Source of the DNA: Microbispora sp. H13382
Lineage (GTDB): Bacteria; Actinomycetota; Actinomycetes; Streptosporangiales; Streptosporangiaceae
Reading direction: 5' to 3'
NCBI RefSeq assembly: GCF_014161445.1
Contig: NZ_JABBXA010000027.1
Coordinates: forward strand, 1-64,000
DNA length: 64,000 nt
Made by a program: the position numbers and the translations under genes. Below are positions 47,325-59,375 of the stretch, piece after piece. The notes under the pieces are model-generated. The model was given only the letters and a program-made list of their open reading frames with translations. It did no database searches and was not told the origin of the DNA. How positions within the stretch are numbered: the first letter of the stretch is position 1; each line of letters opens with the position of its first letter.

Positions 47325-48154
47325 TCAGGCGGGGCGCGCGACGAGGATCCGGATCGCCGAACCGCCGAGCGGCGGTGTGACCTCGGTCAGGTCGAACCCG
47401 GCCGCGGCGAGCAGGTCCCGGAACTCGGTCCTGCCGCCGGTATAGACGAGCATCGCGATGTCGCTCATGACGGCACCGGCCGCCTCCGGCGTGCCGAGGC
47501 CGGACGGCATCACCGGCTCCAGCACGAGCAGGCGTCCGTCCGCCGCGATCGACCGGCGGCAGGCACGCAGCAGGACGACACAGCGCCGGTCGTTCCAGTC
47601 GTGCAGGACGCCCTTGACCAGCATGACGTCGCCCCCGGGCACGGCCTCGAAGAAGTCGCCGGTCTCGATGACGCACCGGTCGGACAGGCCCGCCCGCCGG
47701 AACTCCTCGTCGGCGCCGGCGACCCCCTCGGCGGTGTCGAACAGGATCCCCTTGAGGCCCGGCGCGGCCGCCAGCCCGCCGCGAGCAGCGTGCCGTTGCC
47801 GCCGCCGACCTCGACCACGGTCTGCGCGCCGGTGAAGTTCGTACGCCTTGGGGAGCGCGGGCGCGATCCGTTCGGTGCCCTCGCGCATCGCCCTGTTGAA
47901 CACCGCCGACAGTTCCGGGTGGCGGAACGCTGTGGGGTCAGCGCCCCCCCACGCCTGCCACGCAACCGGTGCAGCGCGCCGGGGTCCGACCCGGTGCGCT
48001 CCGCGAGCCGCGCGACCCCCGTACGGCCTCCTCCGCGAGCAGATCCGGGCAGGCCGAGCCGGACGGCCGCGTAGAGGATCTGCGAGGTGGCGTAGCCGAA
48101 GGCCATCCGGGACAGGTTCGCCTGCCCCGCGAGTCCTCGCGGTAGGTCACTCAT
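47325..48154 (-). pseudogene. O-methyltransferase (acetylserotonin-type) with multiple frameshifts
   Basis: The start is clear: ATG 48154, eight bases after AAGGAG, reading SDLPRGLAGQANLSRMAFGY. The frame then shifts about five times: near 48045 (to DLLAEEAVR), 48015 (LAERTGSDPGALHRL), 47950 at a run of eight Cs (FNRAMREGTERIAPALPKAY), 47840 (GAQTVVEVGGGNGTLL, the SAM-binding loop) and 47770 (GLKGILFDTAEGV to the end). The active-site stretch VKGVLHDWND is intact. Such enzymes methylate polyketide or phenolic hydroxyls. It is either decayed or the sequence has indel errors. The P450 relic next to it suggests a former natural-product locus. Confidence 0.7.
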
Positions 48155-48590
48155 GGGCCTGCTCCTTCCGGGGGCTCTGACAGGTGCGGGGCAGGTGCCG
48201 TGCAGGAAGAGGCCGGGCGTCCACTCCAGGTCGGCGGGATCGACCGCGAGTGCGATCTCGGGGAAACGGCGCACCAGCGCTCCGATCGCGGCCGCGGCCT
48301 GCAGCCGCGCCAGCGCCGCGCCGAGGCAGAAGTGCGCGCCGTGGCCGAAGCCCAGATGCCGGTTCGGGCTGCGGCCGATGTCGAAGACGTCCGGCCGGGG
48401 GAAGACGGCCGGATCGCGGTTGGCCGCCAGCAGCACCGGCACGACCACGTCCCCGCCGGGGGATCACGGTCCCGCCGATCTCCACGTCGGCCAGGACGTA
48501 CAGCGGCCGGGAGTGCCCGACCGGGCCGTTGTACCGCAGCGCCTCCTGTACGGGAACGGTGGTGGCGATCTCGTTGCGACCTACGACCTT
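48155..48590 (-). pseudogene. Cytochrome P450 C-terminal remnant
   Basis: About 140 C-terminal residues of a bacterial P450: the ExxR helix (VQEALRYNGPVG), the beta region LYVLADVEIGGTVIPR, then after a frame slip near 48450 VVVPVLLAANRDPAVFPRPD and the haem ligand loop FGHGAHFCLGAALARL. The first two-thirds of the gene, including the oxygen-binding I helix, are missing. The last frame runs without a stop into the methyltransferase ATG. Not functional. Family is certain, cause of loss unknown. Confidence 0.75.
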
Positions 48591-48776
48591 CACAGCGCCG
48601 AAGGCGGCGCTGCGGTCGCTGAGGGATTTCATACGCGAGGTCGGGCAAGAGCGTGCCGAGCGAATGGCCCGGGCCATGGAACGGATCGCCGACCGGCACG
48701 CCGCACGCGAGGGCCGTCACACTCCGGGTGGAGGCCGTTGACGCGGTCGTCCCTATATGGCGCTACGCGTCGCTAA

Positions 48777-48883
48777 CTCGGTGGCGGCCGTGCTGCTGTG
48801 CCCGACCAACCGTGAGATCTCTTCGAGCGGATGCCGTTGTCCGAGAGTAGCGAGACGAAGCTGTGCCGCAGCTCCCGGGGAGT
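48777..48883 (-). pseudogene. Tyrosine recombinase C-terminal remnant
   Basis: About 36 residues of an integrase catalytic end: TPRELRHSFVSLLSDNGI, then after loss of one base LEEISRLVGHSSTAATE. The Arg-His of the R-H-R-Y active site and the second His region are visible; the tyrosine and everything N-terminal are gone, and a TAG stop lies just upstream. Restoring one C would give the usual GIPLEEISRLVGH. Confidence 0.65.
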
Positions 48884-48910
48884 CTACTTTGGCTGGGGTG
48901 CAGCGGTGGT

Positions 48911-49681: not shown

Positions 49682-49854
49682 CCGTCCTCCTCGCCTCCTG
49701 TCTATCTGTAGAACAATCGCCGGCGAGGTGTCGAGGAATATGACTCGTTCTTCGGCGACCGCCGCAAGGCCGCGCGCTGTACGGAGCCTGTATCCCCGCT
49801 GAACCCCCGCTCTTTACGATCGGGGTCAATCACGTCCGGTGAAAGGAAGTGGTC

Positions 49855-50019
49855 ATGAGAGCGCTGATCAGACGGGCCGCCGACAGGATGGTCGACAAGG
49901 TGGTCCCGCACGCCGAAGCCCGCGCCTGCGGGTGGGAGGGCTACTGCAAGTGCGTCGGCGGCGACATCTATCTCTACTACTGCGGCCGCTGCACCTACTA
50001 CGCGCACGCCGGCTGCTGA
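49855..50019 (+). CDS. 54-residue six-cysteine peptide, probable precursor of an exported disulfide-rich peptide
   Basis: ATG 49855 follows GAAAGGAAG with seven bases of spacing. The first 24 residues are amphipathic and charged (MRALIRRAADRMVDK, then VVPHAEARA) with no hydrophobic core, so this is not a Sec signal peptide. Residues 22-24 are Ala-Arg-Ala, an A-x-A signal-peptidase-like end, directly followed by Cys25. The remaining 30 residues start and end with cysteine and hold all six cysteines (25, 31, 33, 43, 46, 54): CGWEGYCKC, then DIYLYYCGRC and YAHAGC. Aromatic content is high. Downstream genes code an S26-type peptidase, MauE-like and thioredoxin-like redox proteins and transporter parts. 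I infer a leader that is cleaved at A24 and a core with three disulfides. No known peptide family is recognised. Confidence 0.75.
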   Translation: MRALIRRAADRMVDKVVPHAEARACGWEGYCKCVGGDIYLYYCGRCTYYAHAGC

Positions 50020-50096
50020 CGGGCGGCGCGTGACCGGGTGACCGAGCCGGACCCGGTGCGACCATCGGGTCCGGCGGCACACGAGGGGGATGGCGG

Positions 50097-50561
50097 TTGT
50101 CGCTTCTGCTCACCGTTCCGGCGATGACGGCCCTCGCGCTGGCGGCGGTGACTTTGGGGATGCGCCGGGCCTTCGTCGTGGTGACCGTACGGGGCAGGAG
50201 CATGCAGCCCACGCTCCGGGACGGTGACCGGGTGCTGGTGCGGCGACGCGGTGTGACGGCGGTCCGCCCCGACGACCTGGTCGTCTTCGCCGACGTGATC
50301 GACGCGCCTCCCGTGCCGGTGCCTGCCGGGGCGGCGGACAGCGACGGCCCCCGCACGGTGTGGGTGGTGAAACGGGCGATAGCCGTTCCCGGAGACCCGG
50401 TCCCCGAGATGCGCGTGCCCGTGCTGGCCGGGGGGACCACGTCCGTCCCCGCAGACCGGCTGGTGGTGCTCGGGGACAACCCGGCGGTGAGCCGGGACTC
50501 CCGCCTTTACGGGTACGTCGCAGGAGAGCGTCTGCTGGGTGTTGTGATCCGGCGAATGTGA
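50097..50561 (+). CDS. Small S26-family peptidase (SodX/signal peptidase-like)
   Basis: A 154-residue serine-lysine protease. Catalytic Ser35 is in VRGRSMQPTLRDGD and Lys92 in VWVVKRAIAVPGD; the third conserved box reads VVLGDNPAVSRDSR. One N-terminal hydrophobic segment (LTVPAMTALALAAVTLG) could anchor it. I place the start at TTG 50097, after GAGGGGGA; an internal ATG at 50124 is the alternative. In size and motifs it resembles the protease that trims the N-terminal leader of nickel superoxide dismutase and also signal peptidase I. With the A-x-A site in the peptide 78 bases upstream, it is the likely processing enzyme, which is inference from context. Confidence 0.87.
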   Translation: MSLLLTVPAMTALALAAVTLGMRRAFVVVTVRGRSMQPTLRDGDRVLVRRRGVTAVRPDDLVVFADVIDAPPVPVPAGAADSDGPRTVWVVKRAIAVPGDPVPEMRVPVLAGGTTSVPADRLVVLGDNPAVSRDSRLYGYVAGERLLGVVIRRM

Positions 50562-50578
50562 CCGTCTGATGGGGATTA

Positions 50579-53437
50579 ATGCTGAGGCTGATGATCGGCC
50601 AGTTACGCCGCCAGCCGGTGCGCTCGATGACGATGCTGCTCGGCGTGTTACTGGCCACGAGCGGGTTCACCCTGCTCACCGGCTCGGTGGAGACCTCACG
50701 CCTGCGCGTGACCGGGACCGTGGACGACAACTACCGGAGCACGTACGACGTGCTGGTGCGGCCCAAGGGGAGCCGGGACGCGCAGGAGCTCACGCACGGG
50801 CAGGTGCGCCCGAACTTCCTGTCCGGCCAGTTCGGCGGCATCACGCTCGACCAGTGGCGGCGGATACTCACGCTGCCCGGCGTCGAGGTGGCCGCTCCGG
50901 TGGCGATGGTGGGGTACGTCGACGTGACGGCGACCGCCGAGATCGACCTCACGGAGCAGCTCGACCGAGGGGCACGACAGCAGTTGCTCAAGGTGGACAG
51001 GACCTGGACCAGCGACCGGGGACTGTCGACGATCGACGACCCGGGTGACAGGTACGTGTACGTGACCCGCAACCCCGTGCTGTGGCCGCGGTTCACGACG
51101 AGCAAGGCGAACTTCGTGGACTTCGCCGGCTACCGCTACGAGGGCCGGAAGGTGCGAGTGGACGACGCGGTATGTGACCGCCCGGGGATGTCGTCCGGCT
51201 ACCCTGCGGCCGAAGTCCTCCCGGACGGACGGATCCGGCCGATCTGTCCCACCGCGCGCAAGCGAGAGCCCGGACGCACCTACCTCACGGCGGCGGACCG
51301 GTCCCGCGTGGACGTCTACCAGATGCTGCCGGACGGCGGTTTCCGCACCCAGCTCGGCGACGCGGGCGGTGGGATCATCCCCAGGCAGGTACGGCTGCCG
51401 CGCCTGACGCTCCCCGTCAGCTGGCCCGTGCCGCTGTTGCTGGCGGCCGTCGATCCCGTGCAGGAGGCGGAACTGGTCGGGCTGGATCGCGCCGTGGTCA
51501 CCGGGCGTTACCTGCGCGCGAACGACGGCCCGACGCCGACCAAGTGGGCGCTGTTCGCCGATGTTCCCATGCTGCTCTCGTCGACCGCGCACATCGACGA
51601 GCAGCTGACCGCCGGAGTCTCCCGGCTGGACCGGCCGCCGGACATCGCGAGCCTGCGTGGCGATGAGCTGTGGAAGCGGCTACGGACGGTGCCGGCCCGG
51701 CGCACGTCGACCGTGCGCGTCGACGCGGAGAGCGTCTACCGGCAGGTCAGCGAGCGCCCGATCACCGACCCCGGCGACACGTGGCTCAACGTGGACCGCG
51801 TCATCCAGTCCGGCCGCCCGCGCTATGGGGGCGGAGAGGGGGCGCTGAAGCCGGATCCCGTCACCGTCGACCTCGACGAGGTGTGGCGGCAGGAGAACTC
51901 CCTCGTGGACACCTCGGCCCCGTTGTTCGCGCACGATCGGGCGCTCCGGCCGTTGACCAAACGCGAACTGGCCGGCCCCGGTGGCGTATCCATATACGCG
52001 TTCCCGCAGGTGGTGGGCAGATTCGACGCGGCCGGGCTGACCGAGTTCTCCGCGTTGTCCGCGGTGCCGCTGGAGACGTACCAGCCGGCGAGCGCGACCG
52101 GCGCGGACCAGGCCGCGCGGGCGGCGCTGGGGAGCCGCCCGCTGCTGCCCAACGGCAACCCCGGCGGTTACCTGGCCACCCCGCCCCAGCTCCTGACGAC
52201 GCTGACCGCGCTGCCCATGCTCATCCGCGGCGACGACCCGGCGCAGGAGGCGCCGGTCTCCGCGATCCGGGTGCGGGTCGCCGGGGTCACCGGGCTGGAC
52301 GATCTGTCCCAGGAGCGGATCCGCGCGGTCGCCGAGAAGATCGCCACCACGACCGGGCTCGAGGTGGACATCACCATCGGCTCCTCCCCGGCCCCGCGCC
52401 CGGTCGAGCTGCCCGCCGGCTCGTTCGGCCGCCCCGGGCTGCGGCTGCTGGAGAACTGGACGACCAAGGGCGTGGCGGTCGCGCTGACCAGGGCCGTCGA
52501 CCAGAAGAGCGCGCTGCTGTTCGGCCTCATCCTCGTGGTGTGCGTGCTGTTCCTGGGCAACGCGGTGGCCGCGTCGGTCCGGGTGCGGCGGCGCGAGCTG
52601 GCCGTCCTCGGCTGTCTGGGCTGGCCGGCCGGGCGGCTGGCCGCGCTGGTGCTGGGGGAGGTGGTGCTGGTCGGCCTGGTCGCCGGGATCCTGGGCGCCG
52701 CCGTGTCCCTGCCGCTGGCCGCCGCCACCGGCATCGAGGTGAGCCCGGGACACGCGCTGCTGGCCGTACCGGTCGCCTGCGGGATCGCGCTGCTCGGCGG
52801 GCTGGTGCCCGCGCTGCGCGCCGGGCGGGCGCACCCGATGGCGGCGATACGTCCCCCCGTGGTCACCCGCACCCGGGCACGCCGGGCCCGGACGGTGTAC
52901 GGCATGGCGGTGGGCAACCTGGTCCGGGTCCCGACCCGCAGCCTGGTCGGCGTGCTGGCGCTCGCGGCCGGAGTGGCGGCGGTGTCCACATTGCTGGTGA
53001 TCACCTGGCGGTTCCACGGCGAGGCCCAGGGCACGCTGCTGGGCGACGCCGTCTCGTTTCAGGTACGCGGGGTCGATCTGGCCGCCGCCGTCACCACGGT
53101 GGTGCTCGGCGTGTTCGCCATCGCGGACGCTCTCTACCTGAGCGTCCGGGAACGCAGCGGCGAGCTGGCCGCGCTGCGCGCGTGCGGGTGGTCCGACGGG
53201 GAGCTCGGCCGCCTGATCGTCACCGAGGGCGCGCTGCTCGGTCTGACCGGCGCGGTGCTCGGGGCCGGTCTCGGCCTCGGCGTGCTGGCCGCGTTCCTGG
53301 GCGGCCTCACCTGGGCGACCGTGAGCGCCACGCTCCCGGTCGCCGCGGCCGGAACCGCGTTCGCGGTGCTGGCCGCCGCCGTCCCCGCGCAGCTCATGCG
53401 CCGCCTGCCGCTCGCCGCCGTGCTGGCAGAGGACTGA
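50579..53437 (+). CDS. FtsX/MacB-type ABC transporter permease with large extracytoplasmic domain
   Basis: A 952-residue permease. One helix near the N-terminus (SMTMLLGVLLATSGFTLLTG) is followed by an extracytoplasmic domain of about 600 residues. Then come three helices with the FtsX loop RRRELAVLGCLGWPAGRLAA, a second half with VRERSGELAALRACGWSDGE and the final helices. This is the tandem layout of lipoprotein- or peptide-handling ABC systems, which act with a separate ATPase (54538 here). ATG 50579 has GGGGA three bases upstream, a short spacing; ATG 50591 is an alternative. Probable role: moving or releasing the peptide, or resisting it. Confidence 0.85.
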   Translation: MLRLMIGQLRRQPVRSMTMLLGVLLATSGFTLLTGSVETSRLRVTGTVDDNYRSTYDVLVRPKGSRDAQELTHGQVRPNFLSGQFGGITLDQWRRILTLPGVEVAAPVAMVGYVDVTATAEIDLTEQLDRGARQQLLKVDRTWTSDRGLSTIDDPGDRYVYVTRNPVLWPRFTTSKANFVDFAGYRYEGRKVRVDDAVCDRPGMSSGYPAAEVLPDGRIRPICPTARKREPGRTYLTAADRSRVDVYQMLPDGGFRTQLGDAGGGIIPRQVRLPRLTLPVSWPVPLLLAAVDPVQEAELVGLDRAVVTGRYLRANDGPTPTKWALFADVPMLLSSTAHIDEQLTAGVSRLDRPPDIASLRGDELWKRLRTVPARRTSTVRVDAESVYRQVSERPITDPGDTWLNVDRVIQSGRPRYGGGEGALKPDPVTVDLDEVWRQENSLVDTSAPLFAHDRALRPLTKRELAGPGGVSIYAFPQVVGRFDAAGLTEFSALSAVPLETYQPASATGADQAARAALGSRPLLPNGNPGGYLATPPQLLTTLTALPMLIRGDDPAQEAPVSAIRVRVAGVTGLDDLSQERIRAVAEKIATTTGLEVDITIGSSPAPRPVELPAGSFGRPGLRLLENWTTKGVAVALTRAVDQKSALLFGLILVVCVLFLGNAVAASVRVRRRELAVLGCLGWPAGRLAALVLGEVVLVGLVAGILGAAVSLPLAAATGIEVSPGHALLAVPVACGIALLGGLVPALRAGRAHPMAAIRPPVVTRTRARRARTVYGMAVGNLVRVPTRSLVGVLALAAGVAAVSTLLVITWRFHGEAQGTLLGDAVSFQVRGVDLAAAVTTVVLGVFAIADALYLSVRERSGELAALRACGWSDGELGRLIVTEGALLGLTGAVLGAGLGLGVLAAFLGGLTWATVSATLPVAAAGTAFAVLAAAVPAQLMRRLPLAAVLAED

Positions 53438-53445
53438 GGCCGTCG

Positions 53446-53955
53446 ATGAGGCACGTGGAACTCGGCTGCCAGATCCTGCTCGCCGTGGTCTTCGGCTGGT
53501 CGGCGGTGAGCAAGCTGGCCTCCCGTGAGGCGTTCCGGCGGTTCCGCCGGTCGATCGAGCCGCTGACCGGAGGCGGCACCTGGCCGGCCGCGGCCCTGTG
53601 CGCCGCCGAGGCGTTGGTCCCTGCGCTGGTCGCCGTGGCCCCGCCGGCGGGGTTCGCGCTGGCGGCCGGAGCGGTCGCCGTGCTCACGGCGGGTGTGGTC
53701 GTGGTGCTCCGCCGGGGCCTCGCCGTACGGTGCCGGTGCTTCGGCGGCGGCGAGGCGGACCTCGGCACGCGGCACGTGGTGCGCAATCTCGCCCTGCTCG
53801 GCGTGGCCGCGCTGGGCCTGGCCGCGGCGGTGCTGCCGGGCGGCGCCGGGATCGGCGGCCCCGGCGTCCTGCTGGCCACCGGGGTCGCGCTGCTCGCGGC
53901 GGCCCTGGTCATCCGCTTCGACGACGTCGCCGACCTGTTCGGCCCAGTGAACTGA
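53446..53955 (+). CDS. MauE/DoxX-like redox membrane protein
   Basis: A 169-residue protein with four helices. It opens ELGCQILLAVVFGWSAVSKL and carries the family hallmark CRCFGG after helix three (LAVRCRCFGGGEADLGTRH). In methylamine dehydrogenase clusters MauE works with MauD to form disulfides in a cysteine-rich small subunit. Here no dehydrogenase subunit is present, but a six-cysteine peptide is. ATG 53446 follows TGAGG at about seven bases, nine bases after the permease stop. Confidence 0.85.
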   Translation: MRHVELGCQILLAVVFGWSAVSKLASREAFRRFRRSIEPLTGGGTWPAAALCAAEALVPALVAVAPPAGFALAAGAVAVLTAGVVVVLRRGLAVRCRCFGGGEADLGTRHVVRNLALLGVAALGLAAAVLPGGAGIGGPGVLLATGVALLAAALVIRFDDVADLFGPVN

Positions 53956-53972
53956 ATGTGCGGAGGTGCGTT

Positions 53973-54527
53973 GTGGGATACGTGGTCGCGGCCCTCGTGC
54001 TCGTGGGACTCGTGGCGGTGCTCAACCTGGTGTTCACGTACGGCGTCGTCCGGCGCCTGGCCCGGCAGGACCGTGAACTCGCGACCCTGCGGGCCGTCCT
54101 GCCGTCGAATCCGGAGGAGGTCATGACCGGACCCGGGTCGGCGCCGGAGGACTTCGGCGAGGTCACGACGACCGGTGGTGAACACCTGGACAGGGACTCC
54201 CTGACCGGCGGCATGATGCTCGGGTTCTTCACGCCGACCTGTGCTCCGTGCCGCGCGCAGGCGTCGCCCTTCGCGGAACGCGCGCGGTCCCTGGGCCGCG
54301 ACCGGGCGCTGGTGGTCGTGGTCGGGTCGCGGGACGATGTGGGCGAGCTGGTCGCGCTGTTCGATCCGGTCGCGCGGGTGCTGGTCGAGCCGGATCAGGG
54401 CCCGGTCCAGCGGGCCTTCGGCGTACGGGGCTTCCCGGCGATGTGCGTGCTGGACGCGGACGGGCGCGTCGCGGCCGTGGCCACGGGAGTGGACCGGCTC
54501 CCGGAACCCGCCGCGAGGGCGGAGTGA
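53973..54527 (+). CDS. MauD/TlpA-like membrane-tethered thioredoxin
   Basis: A 184-residue protein with an N-terminal membrane helix (VVAALVLVGLVAVLNLVF) and an extracytoplasmic thioredoxin fold. The redox motif is FFTPTCAPCRAQ (CAPC) and the cis-proline loop GFPAMCVLDADG. GTG 53973 lies six bases after GGAGG and 17 bases after the MauE-like stop. The pair should pass electrons or disulfides across the membrane, which fits maturation of the cysteine-rich peptide after export. An unusual third cysteine lies next to the cis-Pro loop. Confidence 0.87.
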   Translation: MGYVVAALVLVGLVAVLNLVFTYGVVRRLARQDRELATLRAVLPSNPEEVMTGPGSAPEDFGEVTTTGGEHLDRDSLTGGMMLGFFTPTCAPCRAQASPFAERARSLGRDRALVVVVGSRDDVGELVALFDPVARVLVEPDQGPVQRAFGVRGFPAMCVLDADGRVAAVATGVDRLPEPAARAE

Positions 54528-54537
54528 GGACGGAGAG

Positions 54538-55251
54538 GTGAAGGTGGAGGCGCGTACGACCGGCACCCGGCGCGGTGTCGAGGTGACGATCAGGGGACTG
54601 ACCAAGCGTTTCGGTCAGGGAGACGGCCGGATCGTCGCCGCCGACGACGTGTCGCTGCACGTGCCGGCGGGGCAGCGGGTCGCCGTGGTGGGTGCTTCGG
54701 GCTCCGGCAAGTCCACCCTGCTCCACCTGATCGGCGGCATGGAACGGGTGGACGGCGGCACGATCACGGTCGGGGACCGGGAGGTGACCGCGCTCGGCCG
54801 CCGTGAGCTGTCGGTCTACCGTCGCAGCGTCGGCTTCGTCTTCCAGCGGTTCCACCTGCTGCCCGCGCTCACCGTCCTGGACAACGTCCTCGCCCCGGTG
54901 CTGCCCCGCCGGGTGGACTTCGACCGTACGGAACGGGCCCGGCAGCTGCTCGCCGCCGTGGGCCTGCTGGACCGGGCGCACGCCGTGCCGTCGCAGCTGT
55001 CCGGCGGGCAGCAGCAGCGGGTCGCGGTCGCGCGTGCGCTGATCGGCGACCCTCGGCTGATCCTGGCCGACGAGCCCACGGGGAACCTCGACTCGGCCAC
55101 CGGCCGGGAGGTGATGGAGCTGGTCGACCGCCTGGTCGCCGAGCAGGGGCTGACCCTGCTGGTCGCCACCCACGACGACGGGGTGGCCGCGTACTGCGAT
55201 CGGATCATCCGCATCCGGGACGGCCGGATCGTCGACGACACCGCGCGCTGA
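54538..55251 (+). CDS. ABC transporter ATP-binding protein (MacB/LolD type)
   Basis: A 237-residue ATPase that should pair with the FtsX-like permease. Walker A GASGSGKST, Q-loop FVFQRFHLLP, signature [15 protein letters not shown], Walker B LILADEPTGNLDS and the switch His in VATHDD are complete; the ADEPTGNLD string is typical of the MacB/LolD branch. GTG 54538 follows AGGA at seven bases and is ten bases after the thioredoxin stop. It closes the plus-strand operon that begins with the peptide gene. Confidence 0.93.
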   Translation: MKVEARTTGTRRGVEVTIRGLTKRFGQGDGRIVAADDVSLHVPAGQRVAVVGASGSGKSTLLHLIGGMERVDGGTITVGDREVTALGRRELSVYRRSVGFVFQRFHLLPALTVLDNVLAPVLPRRVDFDRTERARQLLAAVGLLDRAHAVPSQLSGGQQQRVAVARALIGDPRLILADEPTGNLDSATGREVMELVDRLVAEQGLTLLVATHDDGVAAYCDRIIRIRDGRIVDDTAR

Positions 55252-55263
55252 CCGTTCGGGGGC

Positions 55264-56073
55264 TCAAAGCCGAAGCGCGTCGCCTGTTCTGTTCTGGACG
55301 CCCGGGCGGAGCAGGCCGGGGTCGCGCCGGAGGATGGCGGCCTGGAGCCACTCGACGCGGTCGTCCGGATCGAGTCCCAGCGAGCGCCGGAGCACCTCAC
55401 GGGCGCCGGCGCACGCCTGGAGCGCGCCGGCGACGTCGCCGAGCCGGTACAGCGTGACCATGAGCTGCCGGTGCGGGCGCTCGCGCACCTGGTGCTCGGC
55501 GAGGTGCCCGCGCAGGTCGGCGGCGAGGGCGGACCCGCTGCACCGGTCGGTGGCGGTCAGGTCGAGCCGGACGTCGAACCAGTCCTCCAGCACTCCGATG
55601 CGGCGTTCGTCCAGCGCGGTCGCGGTGGCGGTGAGGATGGGCCCGCGGCGCAGCCCGGTCAGCGCGGGCCCGCGCCACATGTGGAGCGCGCGCTCGTACG
55701 CCGAGGAGGCGGCCGGCAGGTCGCCGTTCATCTGGTCGTTCCTGGCCCGGGCGCACAGGTCGGCGAAGACGTCGACGTCGATCTGTTCCCTGTCGACCTG
55801 CAGCCGGAGGCCGTCGGGGTCCGAGACGAGCTGCGGCCCGCCGTCGAAGACGACCCGGCGCAGTTCGGTCGCGTACGTCCGCAGGTTGGACATCGCCGAA
55901 GCGGGCTGGGCGCCGTCCCACAGTTCTTCCAGCAGCCGGTGCCACAGCACCAGCTTTCCGGAGTTCAGCAGCAGCATCACGAGCAGCGCCCGGGGCTTAT
56001 GGGCGGTCAGCGAAATCGGTTGTGCCCCATTGAGAATTTCGAGTGGACCCAATAACCGGAACTCAAACCCCAT
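55264..56073 (-). CDS. SARP-like (BTAD domain) transcriptional activator
   Basis: A 269-residue regulator with an OmpR-like winged helix (FRLLGPLEILNGAQPISLTA, KPRALLVMLLLNSGKLV, MSNLRTYATELRRV) and a bacterial transcriptional activation domain from about 100. There is no ATPase or TPR extension, so it is a small SARP of the ActII-4/RedD kind that switches on secondary metabolite operons. It converges with the ABC ATPase (12-base gap) and follows the exporter gene by 101 bases, supporting a role in this cluster. ATG 56073 has GGGG at six bases; the upstream gap is AT-rich. Confidence 0.87.
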   Translation of the reverse strand: MGFEFRLLGPLEILNGAQPISLTAHKPRALLVMLLLNSGKLVLWHRLLEELWDGAQPASAMSNLRTYATELRRVVFDGGPQLVSDPDGLRLQVDREQIDVDVFADLCARARNDQMNGDLPAASSAYERALHMWRGPALTGLRRGPILTATATALDERRIGVLEDWFDVRLDLTATDRCSGSALAADLRGHLAEHQVRERPHRQLMVTLYRLGDVAGALQACAGAREVLRRSLGLDPDDRVEWLQAAILRRDPGLLRPGVQNRTGDALRL

Positions 56074-56174
56074 GAAGACCCCGTAAGCCCCCGGAAACTT
56101 TCGGGCAATCGCAGAAAATATAAACTCCGACAGAATGTATTTCAAGTAAAGGACATATCCGGCATAGCTGATGG

Positions 56175-57971
56175 TCAGTCCCGATGCCCCGGCTCGGAGA
56201 ACTGGTAGCCCCGCGCCTGGAGGGTGAACAGCCGCGCGTAGACGCCGCCGGCGTCCACGAGCGCCTCGTGCGTCCCCTGCTCCACCACCTGTCCCCGGTC
56301 CAGGACGACGAGCAGGTCCGCGTCCCGCACCGCGCTGAGCCGGTGGGAGATCAGCACGCTGGTGCGTCCGGCCCGGTGCTCGCGCAGGCCGGTGTGGATC
56401 TCGTGTTCCGCCTCGGCGTCCAGCCCGGAGCTGGGTTCGTCCAGGATGAGCAGGTCGCGTTCGCCGCGCAGGTACGCCCGGGCGAGGGCCAGGCGCTGCC
56501 ACTGCCCGCCGGACAGGTGGACACCGTGCTCGCCGCCGTCCCCGTCGAGGAAGATGCGCGACAACAGGGTGTCGTAGGCGCGGGGGAGCTTCTCGGCGAA
56601 CGAGTCGGCGCCCGCCGCACGTGCCGCCGCGACGATCCGGTCTCGATCGCCCAGCACGGCGAGATCGCTCAATCCGATGTTGTCCGCCACGGTCAGGTCG
56701 TATTCCATGTAGTCCTGGAAGACCACGCCGACGCGGCGCCTCAGCTCGTCCGGCGCCATGTCGCGCAGGTCGACCCCGTCCCACAGGATCGCGCCGCGCT
56801 CCGGGTCGTACATCCGGCACAGCAGTTTCACCACTGTGCTCTTGCCCGCCCCGTTCCTGCCCACGAGGCCGAGGGCCCCGCCGTACGGGATGTCGAAGCT
56901 GATCCCGCGCAGCGCCCAGTCCTGTTCGGGGGAGTAACGGAACCACACGTCCCGGAACTCGATGCCCCGCCTCAGCGCGGGGACGGGCCGTGGCCTCGCC
57001 GCGACCGGGAGGTCGGGACGGTCGGACGTCACCGCGAGGTGGTGGGAGAACAGCCGGAGGTGCTGATGCGCCTGGGCCACCTCGGTCACCAGGCCCGTGA
57101 CCGAGCCCTGCACCCCCGCGACGGCGGCGACGAACATCGAGACGTCGCCGATCGTCCGGCCGCCGTCCAGGGTGCCCACCAGCGCCCACAGCAGCCCGGC
57201 CCCGGCCGCCAGCGCGCCCGCGAGACCGGTGCAGGTCTGCACGGCCAGCTCGCGCCGGTCGGTACGACGGCGTTCCGCGTCCGCGGCCCGGCGCTGGTCC
57301 ATCATGAGCCGGCGCAGGTGGCCGGCGATGCCGAACAGCCGGATCTCCTTGGCGGCCCGCACGTTGACGAGGAGCTCACGGAAGAAGATCTCCCGCCGCT
57401 CATGCGGGCCTATGTCCCACAGCATGGTCGCCCGCCGCCGGGACAGCCACAACTCGGCCAGGAGCATGGGGGCGGCGGAGCCGAGCACGAGGACGGCCAT
57501 CCACGGGCTGACCGCCGCGAGCGAGGCCACGAAACCCACCCCGACCAGGGCGCTCCTGGCGATCCCGAGGAGAGCGGCGACGAGCAGGGCGGGAGTGGCC
57601 CCGCCGTGCCGCTGGGCCAGCTGCAGCCGGTCGAGGAAGGCGGGATCCTCGAACCGGGCCAGACCGACGAAGCGTTCCGTGGCCAGGAACAGGCGGTCCT
57701 GGGCGATCCGGCTCACCCGCCGCCCGGTCTCCTCGCGCAGGTAGTGCGTGATCGCGGGAACCGCCGCGGCGCCCGCTCCGCACACCGCCAGGGCGGTCCC
57801 CAGCGTGACCACCAGGGCGATCGTGGCGTCGCCGTGCGCGATCAGGTCCAGCGTCACCTTGGTCAGCCAGGCGACGGCGAGTGGGACCGCGGCGGCGAGG
57901 ACGGTGAGCGCGGCGAACAGGACCAGGCGGGACCGGCCGGCCTGCCAGGCGAGACCGAGCGCGTCCCTCAT
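56175..57971 (-). CDS. ABC exporter, fused membrane and ATPase domains
   Basis: A 598-residue type I half-exporter. Six helices cover residues 1 to about 310 (FAALTVLAAAVPLAVAWLT and others). The nucleotide domain at about 345-585 has Walker A GRNGAGKST, VVFQDYMEYDLTVADNIG, signature LSGGQWQRLALARAY and Walker B LLILDEPSSGLD. There is no C39 peptidase domain, so it would export an already processed peptide or another small molecule. ATG 57971 follows GGAAGG; a longer frame to 58187 reads as low-quality Arg-rich sequence. Many actinobacterial peptide clusters use this transporter type. Confidence 0.92.
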   Translation of the reverse strand: MRDALGLAWQAGRSRLVLFAALTVLAAAVPLAVAWLTKVTLDLIAHGDATIALVVTLGTALAVCGAGAAAVPAITHYLREETGRRVSRIAQDRLFLATERFVGLARFEDPAFLDRLQLAQRHGGATPALLVAALLGIARSALVGVGFVASLAAVSPWMAVLVLGSAAPMLLAELWLSRRRATMLWDIGPHERREIFFRELLVNVRAAKEIRLFGIAGHLRRLMMDQRRAADAERRRTDRRELAVQTCTGLAGALAAGAGLLWALVGTLDGGRTIGDVSMFVAAVAGVQGSVTGLVTEVAQAHQHLRLFSHHLAVTSDRPDLPVAARPRPVPALRRGIEFRDVWFRYSPEQDWALRGISFDIPYGGALGLVGRNGAGKSTVVKLLCRMYDPERGAILWDGVDLRDMAPDELRRRVGVVFQDYMEYDLTVADNIGLSDLAVLGDRDRIVAAARAAGADSFAEKLPRAYDTLLSRIFLDGDGGEHGVHLSGGQWQRLALARAYLRGERDLLILDEPSSGLDAEAEHEIHTGLREHRAGRTSVLISHRLSAVRDADLLVVLDRGQVVEQGTHEALVDAGGVYARLFTLQARGYQFSEPGHRD

Positions 57972-58322
57972 CGCGCGCGGCCTTCCGCATCGCGGGTCGC
58001 GGCGGCGAACGCGGACGCCGGTGGCGCGGTGACGGGGAACGGCATGCCGCCAGCCCTTTTCGATCGGGGACCCGGGGTCGCGGGACCGGGAGGACCACGC
58101 CCGTGACGTGGGCATCCTGGCCTGCCGGTCTTCTCGCAGATTAGGGGCGCCGCGTATAGGAGTCGTACATTCCCGGCACAACGCCATCGCGGGTGGCCGC
58201 TGTTCGGCCGAGCCGCCCCTACGGCCACGGGCATCGAGCCGCCGACTGCCCCAGCGTCACAACGCTCTCGGTACCGAACGCCGGTTGCCTCTGGCTGAGC
58301 TGCCTTCCTAGGGTGGGTGGCC

Positions 58323-59375
58323 GTGATCGATGGAACGGTTGAACCTGGTTTCGAGCAGGTACGGGACGTTTTCGCGGATGTGCTGAAGCGGCAGGCCCCA
58401 GGAGCGGGGGCGGCGGTCGCCGCGCGGCTGGACGGCCGCTGGGTGGTCGACCTGTGGGGCGGGCCCGGCTGGTCCCGCGACAGCATCGTCATGCCGTACT
58501 CCGTGACCAAACCGTTCGCGGCGGTCTGCGTGTTGCTCCTCGTGGACCGGGGCGTGCTGGAGCTGGACGCTCCGATGCGGCGCTACTGGCCCGAGTTCAC
58601 CGCGCCGGCGACCGTACGGCATGTCCTGTCGCACCAGGCGGGCGTGGTGGCGCTGGACCGACCGGTGCCCACCGAGACCTTCTACGACTGGGACCGGATG
58701 TGCGCGCTTCTCGCCGCGCAGGAGCCGTCGTGGGAGCCGGGCACCGCGCACGGCGAGTCGGCGCTGTTCTACGGGCACCTGCTCGGCGAACTGGTCCGGC
58801 GCACGGACGGGCGGACGCTCGGCCGCTTCCTCGCCGAGGAGATCTGCGGCCCGCACGAGCTGGACTTCCACATCGGCCTCGGCCCCGCAGAACAGGCACG
58901 GGCGATCGAACTGACCGGCTTGACCGCGGCCTACCGGGCCGCCGCGCTGGACGGCAGGCCCGACCTCTACCGGCGGGCCATCGGCAACCCGCCCGGTGCC
59001 CAGGACCCGGCTGTGGTCAACTCCGCCGCCTGGCGGGCCGCCGAGATCCCCGCTGTCAACGGCCACGGCACCGCCCGTGCGGCCGCCGGGTTCTACGCCG
59101 CGTTGCCGCGGCTGCTGTCGGCCGGCCTGCTCGCCGAGGCCACCACCGCCCAATGCTCGGGGGTGGACGCGGTTCTCGGGACGCAGGCGACCTGGGGGCT
59201 GGGCTTCGGCATCGACGGCGACGAATACGGCATGGGCGGCCTGGGCGGCAACTACGCCGGGGCCGCCGGCTACACCTTCGCCTTCCTCACCGGCCATGCC
59301 GGCGATTTCGATCGCGCCACCGACCTGGAGAACGCTCTGCGCGCCGTTCTCGGGCTCGGCCCGATTTCCGACTGA
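58323..59375 (+). CDS. Beta-lactamase-fold serine hydrolase (class C/EstB-like)
   Basis: A 350-residue cytoplasmic protein of the beta-lactamase/esterase family. The nucleophile motif S-x-x-K is present as PYSVTKPFA, followed by a tyrosine in ESALFYGHLLGEL. The third box is GGLGGNYAG rather than KTG, as in esterase-type members. Therefore it may be an esterase or peptidase and need not attack antibiotics. GTG 58323 or GTG 58317 start the frame; AGGGTGGG spacing favours 58323. No signal peptide is visible, which argues against a classic lactamase. Confidence 0.85.
   Translation: MIDGTVEPGFEQVRDVFADVLKRQAPGAGAAVAARLDGRWVVDLWGGPGWSRDSIVMPYSVTKPFAAVCVLLLVDRGVLELDAPMRRYWPEFTAPATVRHVLSHQAGVVALDRPVPTETFYDWDRMCALLAAQEPSWEPGTAHGESALFYGHLLGELVRRTDGRTLGRFLAEEICGPHELDFHIGLGPAEQARAIELTGLTAAYRAAALDGRPDLYRRAIGNPPGAQDPAVVNSAAWRAAEIPAVNGHGTARAAAGFYAALPRLLSAGLLAEATTAQCSGVDAVLGTQATWGLGFGIDGDEYGMGGLGGNYAGAAGYTFAFLTGHAGDFDRATDLENALRAVLGLGPISD

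Follow-up and report, generated by a model that had tools for sequence, protein, structure and literature searches.

The window analysed here, a stretch of 64,000 nucleotides from the soil actinobacterium Microbispora sp. H13382, carries on its forward strand a reading frame of 54 codons at 49855-50019, with its ATG at 49855, its stop codon at 50017-50019 and a Shine-Dalgarno sequence (AAGGAAG) upstream of the ATG, at about 49843-49849. The encoded precursor joins the leader MRALIRRAADRMVDKVVPHAEARA, which is free of cysteines and bears an A-x-A motif at residues 22-24, to the 30-residue core CGWEGYCKCVGGDIYLYYCGRCTYYAHAGC, which has a Cys at both ends. The six cysteines of the core (C25, C31, C33, C43, C46 and C54) are spaced C-x5-C-x-C-x9-C-x2-C-x7-C, and the oxidised 30-mer has a predicted monoisotopic mass of 3370.29 Da. 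The leader of the window precursor ends in A-R-A, not in Gly-Gly; no Sec-type h-region was found before the A-x-A motif, the maximum 11-residue hydropathy of the leader being 0.25, and no transmembrane segment is predicted in the precursor. The reading frame, ribosome site, leader, A-x-A motif and six-cysteine core all lie where the original prediction had placed them. The features of the locus are the following.

49770..58236, no strand assigned: the complete conserved module, shared as a single block at 96% identity with Microbispora bryophytorum (G120)
49770..49854, plus: conserved upstream stretch with promoter region and Shine-Dalgarno sequence; homology begins here in G120, in G140 and in a decayed copy in G027
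49855..49926, plus: leader peptide, residues 1-24, a putative amphipathic helix with A-x-A at its end (leader consensus, hydropathy and structural model)
49927..50019, plus: core peptide, residues 25-54 and stop; six Cys, predicted three-stranded beta-sheet (AlphaFold2)
50097..50561, plus: S26 signal-peptidase-like protease (PF10502, 67.9 bits); one N-terminal transmembrane segment, Ser-Lys dyad conserved
50579..53437, plus: FtsX-type ABC permease of 952 aa with a large outside domain (PF02687, 70.6 bits); a rare add-on
53446..53955, plus: MauE-like membrane redox protein (PF07291, 68.3 bits, cut-off 27) with a C-x-C-F-G motif
53973..54527, plus: membrane-anchored TlpA/MauD-like thioredoxin-fold protein with CxxC (CAPC) and cis-Pro; Redoxin match sub-threshold (24.2, cut-off 26.6)
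54538..55251, plus: ABC ATPase of the MacB/LolD type that pairs with the FtsX permease (PF00005, 123.3 bits)
55264..56073, minus: SARP (BTAD) transcriptional activator of 269 aa (PF03704, 101.6 bits), convergent; SARP genes also occur in family loci
56175..57971, minus: family ABC exporter, membrane part and ATPase, with no C39 domain; a longer start at 58187 is possible

Extent of the module and its close relatives

The five same-strand genes downstream of the peptide belong to the families originally named for them, as borne out by Pfam and, for the TlpA/MauD-like protein, by the CAPC motif together with the sub-threshold Redoxin match. The plus-strand genes up to 55251 are as first described, but the unit does not end there, since the module runs to about 58236, and the SARP activator and the family ABC exporter, both on its minus strand, had been left out of the gene set. 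This exporter is about 50-74% identical to the exporters of other family loci, whereas the best control transporter reaches 35%; its Pfam matches are ABC_tran and a sub-threshold AAA model only. A Pfam search of the module genes detected no LanB, LanC, LanM, YcaO or radical SAM protein, in agreement with the claimed absence of standard RiPP enzymes. Two more specific models scored below their NCBIfam cut-offs: TIGR02754 (NiSOD maturation protease) on the S26 protease (38.4, cut-off 63.25) and TIGR03608 (Lactococcin 972-type export ATPase) on the ATPase (173.9, cut-off 254.85).

The block 49770-58236 aligns as one piece with M. bryophytorum while the flanking DNA on both sides is unrelated between the two genomes, and it therefore acts as one unit at different sites. 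In G140, the peptide is intact and 91% identical, and S26, FtsX and ATPase are kept, all four genes being about 95% identical in DNA; MauE and TlpA have been removed by a clean deletion from an operon of the window type that is complete in other respects (locus L034, oriented offset 3584 from the peptide), and the SARP and exporter genes are also missing from this block. Because three further loci of G140 carry family TlpA genes, the strain might share functions in trans. The G027 copy, with a truncated peptide and no partner genes, looks like a relic. FtsX and its ATPase occur in four family loci only, those of the window, G120, G140 and G080.

Just past the module lies a gene for a beta-lactamase-family serine hydrolase (58317-59375, plus strand), which has relatives near three other loci (L065, L069 and L071); it was left out of the module because it stands outside the conserved block. 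On the opposite side, pieces of a cytochrome P450 C-terminal part and of an O-methyltransferase (PF00067, PF00891) lie across different frames at 47325-48720 on the minus strand, and look like what is left of a secondary-metabolite cluster after frameshifts and decay. At about 48750-48900 (minus strand), some 1 kb upstream of the module, inspection by eye showed pieces in two frames (TPRELRHSFVSLLSDNG and ISRLVGHSSTAATELA) that resemble the C-terminus of a tyrosine recombinase, and these might be related to the presence of the module at different sites.

The peptide family and its genomic neighbourhood

A tBLASTn search of 201 genomes from the taxonomic family of the strain returned relatives of the precursor at 98%, 91%, 78% and 52% identity, followed by a weaker tail of matches having in common the leader and a Cys-rich C-terminal part. 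The leader follows the consensus ..R(L)xDR(L/M)(L/V)xx(V/L)VPxAxAxA, in which the P and the AxA are near invariant, and across the family the leader is conserved and the core variable, as in RiPPs taken in a broad sense. A profile built from 20 members found the family in 81 of the 201 genomes (about 40%) and in 34 of 68 genera, with up to 10 members per genome and four in the window's own; this count is partly self-finding, because the seeds were drawn from the same genome sample, and the neighbourhood and converse tests described below are independent of it. Among 395 other genomes across the phylum, the profile gave just seven weak matches. No Pfam or NCBIfam family matched 68 members at an E-value of 0.01, and 31 members searched against Pfam alone likewise gave none. 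Since the peptide profile finds little in Streptomyces, loci were sought there with the TlpA profile, which is present in 21 of 121 Streptomyces genomes, and the same cassette is present in this genus. A plasmid search with a Streptomyces member returned no match.

Precursor genes also occur in tandem, 3-6 to an array and with divergent cores; L041, L092 and L159 hold three apiece. The largest array, in L133 (G062:C28:349081-354952), holds six precursors with different cores, and further weak profile matches fall there. In L041 (G173) and L049 (G198), peptide clusters adjoin one another, two or three of them within about 7 kb.

The neighbourhood of the peptide was analysed in 84 family loci, drawn from 54 genomes in at least 22 genera, and in 20 control loci elsewhere in these genomes, searching within 8 kb with partner profiles that had been seeded with the window proteins and then extended with proteins of the loci. 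S26 was found near the peptide in 78 of the 84 family loci, TlpA-like proteins in 76 and MauE in 61, none of the three being present in any control. The ABC exporter was found in 76 of 84 family loci and in 5 of 20 controls, where only generic ABC proteins matched. Clustering of all the neighbouring genes brought out SARP as a further common partner (50/84 against 0/20). The commonest gene order is peptide-MauE-TlpA-exporter-S26.

The converse test gave a comparable picture: in 18 of 19 Streptomyces loci selected by TlpA alone, a peptide with leader and cysteines (4-10 Cys) is adjacent, and this pattern had no match in 341 kb of control DNA. No convincing precursor was seen at one Streptomyces locus (L156), nor did any precursor pass the scan at L160 (G000:C3:183234), the fifth locus with MauE, TlpA and exporter in the genome that holds the window. 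These locus counts, which span many genera, are not independent events, because the loci are related by descent. The original prediction had staked itself beforehand on the peptide being kept beside these genes in other genomes, and the 84 family loci show that it is.

Probable cysteine pairing and the proposed maturation pathway

An even number of cysteines (4, 6, 8 or 10) is present in all 82 intact precursors, while the family leaders are practically without Cys. When only cores below 60% identity were considered, 49 of 50 were even, the lone exception being a trimming artefact; among the Streptomyces precursors, one of 23 is odd (7 Cys). Even counts are what full disulfide pairing would give. 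The residues expected of the partner enzymes are conserved as well: the catalytic Ser and Lys of S26 in 98% of the family, the C-x-C-F-G motif of MauE in 100%, and in TlpA the two CxxC cysteines in 99 and 96% and the cis-Pro in 99%. S26 and TlpA each have a single N-terminal membrane segment, which is consistent with active sites on the outside.

An AlphaFold2 model of the window precursor, computed from an alignment of 68 family members, predicts three beta strands in the core (27-34, 37-42 and 45-51; block pLDDT 92-94) and, with low confidence (pLDDT about 62), a helix at leader residues 2-16. A Streptomyces-led set, modelled separately, gave a similar strand-rich core (pLDDT about 88-95), the two alignments having some members in common and so not being fully independent. 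A sequence-profile search of the PDB found no match, and the best hits of a Foldseek comparison of folds (E 1.4 and 0.24) were not significant; as fold comparison has little power for so small a protein, the lack of a PDB fold match is not evidence for a new fold.

Taken together, we consider it probable that a small, SARP-controlled biosynthetic cluster at this locus makes a secreted miniprotein with three disulfides, which is exported, oxidised outside and cut by S26, and which is most likely antagonistic. Specifically, the SARP activator would switch the cluster on, and the ribosome would make the 54-residue precursor, whose Cys-free amphipathic leader, being conserved next to a variable core, may act as a recognition tag. 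As the leader is no Sec signal, the ABC exporter most likely carries the precursor across the membrane. On the outer side, the anchored TlpA-like protein would pair the six cysteines and MauE would maintain its working redox state, as the even Cys counts and the gene linkage suggest. The S26 protease would cut after A22-x-A24 and release the Cys-to-Cys 30-mer. We infer the order of these steps, the direction of the redox reaction, the position of the cut and the role of the product; in line with the original prediction, we also infer that the leader is cut after A24, that the disulfides form outside and that the 30-mer is exported, a reading which conservation, neighbourhood, even Cys counts and the predicted beta-sheet core support. 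Against this pathway stand the capacity of TlpA-type proteins to act as reductants, the G140 locus, with an intact peptide in spite of having no MauE, TlpA, SARP or exporter, and the seven-cysteine Streptomyces precursor.

The G140 locus also bears on the route of export. Since this block keeps just the peptide, S26, FtsX and ATPase, the FtsX permease and its ATPase could be the true exporter of the window's sub-branch in place of the separate ABC exporter, MauE and TlpA being dispensable. We hold this to be unlikely: FtsX is found in only 4 of the 84 loci, against 76 for the ABC exporter of about 600 residues, which is also present in the window and G120 modules, and G140 could rely on its other loci for exporter and redox genes. 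FtsX and its ATPase, unlikely as a main exporter, may instead be an extra of this sub-branch, perhaps for self-protection or as a second release path.

As to the role of the product, within the proposed pathway the SARP linkage, the hypervariable cores and the tandem arrays tip the balance, on sequence grounds, towards an antagonistic (antimicrobial) peptide; no immunity gene was identified. The same export and folding machinery could serve a signalling peptide or a development factor for the producer, and several different copies per genome, tandem arrays and a SARP linkage would suit such a role too. This reading appears improbable, in that the neighbourhood clustering gave no receptor or sensor kinase as a common partner and a response regulator in 13 of 84 loci only, and cores as variable as these would be expected of arms-race peptides more than of a conserved signal.

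TlpA-type proteins are able to reduce as well as to oxidise, and the cores often contain CxC, CC and CxxC motifs, so that the cysteines might instead stay reduced and bind metal in a metallothionein or metallophore-like product, with TlpA and MauE as a reductive relay. The even Cys number of all 82 precursors over many scaffolds, the absence of a metal importer or metal regulator among the conserved partners in the neighbourhood clustering, and export to an oxidising compartment make this very unlikely. Finally, although the precursor frame is short and matches no Pfam or NCBIfam model, we rejected the notion of a chance frame 5' of unrelated transport and redox genes as having next to no probability, given orthologues at 98% and 91% identity that keep the frame with pN below pS relative to the window, a large family and conserved partner genes.

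Relation to known systems and significance

The oxidation and cleavage steps of the proposed pathway have parallels in better known systems. In methylamine dehydrogenase maturation, MauE and MauD together support an exported product rich in disulfides; the module, in contrast, has no dehydrogenase subunit genes, and its product is a 30-residue peptide. In NiSOD maturation, a small S26 protease takes off a leader that is no Sec signal. The module likewise combines a small S26 protease with a non-Sec leader, but it has no NiSOD gene, its peptide has no nickel-hook motif and its protease scores below the TIGR02754 cut-off. An amphipathic leader and an ABC exporter are shared with double-glycine bacteriocins and their C39 peptidase exporters, from which the module differs by A-x-A in place of Gly-Gly, an exporter without a C39 domain and a separate S26 protease.

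The TMcins (PMC13252029), which combine leader removal, a disulfide formed by a dedicated oxidoreductase and ABC export, are an analogue; their transmembrane helix, DsbA-type oxidase and intramembrane metalloprotease were not seen in the module.

In the literature searched, a link between MauE and RiPP-like clusters was found only in decRiPPter (Kloosterman et al. 2020, PMC7794033), and no experimental description of such peptide clusters was found. According to its main text, three Streptomyces candidate RiPP families contain mauE and one of them also mauD; these are predictions only, their precursors have at least 8 Cys, and the filter demanded a peptidase, a transporter and a regulator. As in those families, MauE and MauD-like genes stand in our module next to a small Cys-rich precursor, the window MauE scoring above the PF07291 cut-off; the window precursor, unlike theirs, has 6 Cys, while other members of its family have 8 or 10. 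The decRiPPter main text (PMC7794033) does not mention the leader, the S26 cut site, the even-Cys rule, the SARP link, the tandem arrays or the Streptosporangiaceae branch. Compared by description only, the decRiPPter mauE families are probably part of the same class as the window family.

In conclusion, the locus is real and conserved, its genes make functional sense together, and it has been little described; its maturation set is defined and unusual, and the window family falls under leader-directed exported peptides with post-translational disulfides. On balance, we lean towards a class of bacterial peptide natural products, rich in disulfides, that has not been described before. Its leader and its extracellular maturation set (ABC exporter, MauE/TlpA oxidation pair, S26 protease and SARP switch) would be constant, whereas the cores that they serve, in some cases encoded in tandem arrays, would follow dozens of Cys frameworks that look unrelated, in Streptosporangiaceae as well as in Streptomyces, by a logic resembling that of a venom library. 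The family is possibly a library of antibiotic-like weapons. If this holds true, leader, A-x-A motif, even Cys number and MauE/TlpA/S26 neighbours would provide mining rules for such peptides, the role of MauE/MauD in disulfide formation would become testable in a small system, and a route may open to designed disulfide peptides produced in Streptomyces. Actinobacteria would then possess a large reserve of gene-encoded miniproteins locked by disulfides that has gone almost unnoticed.
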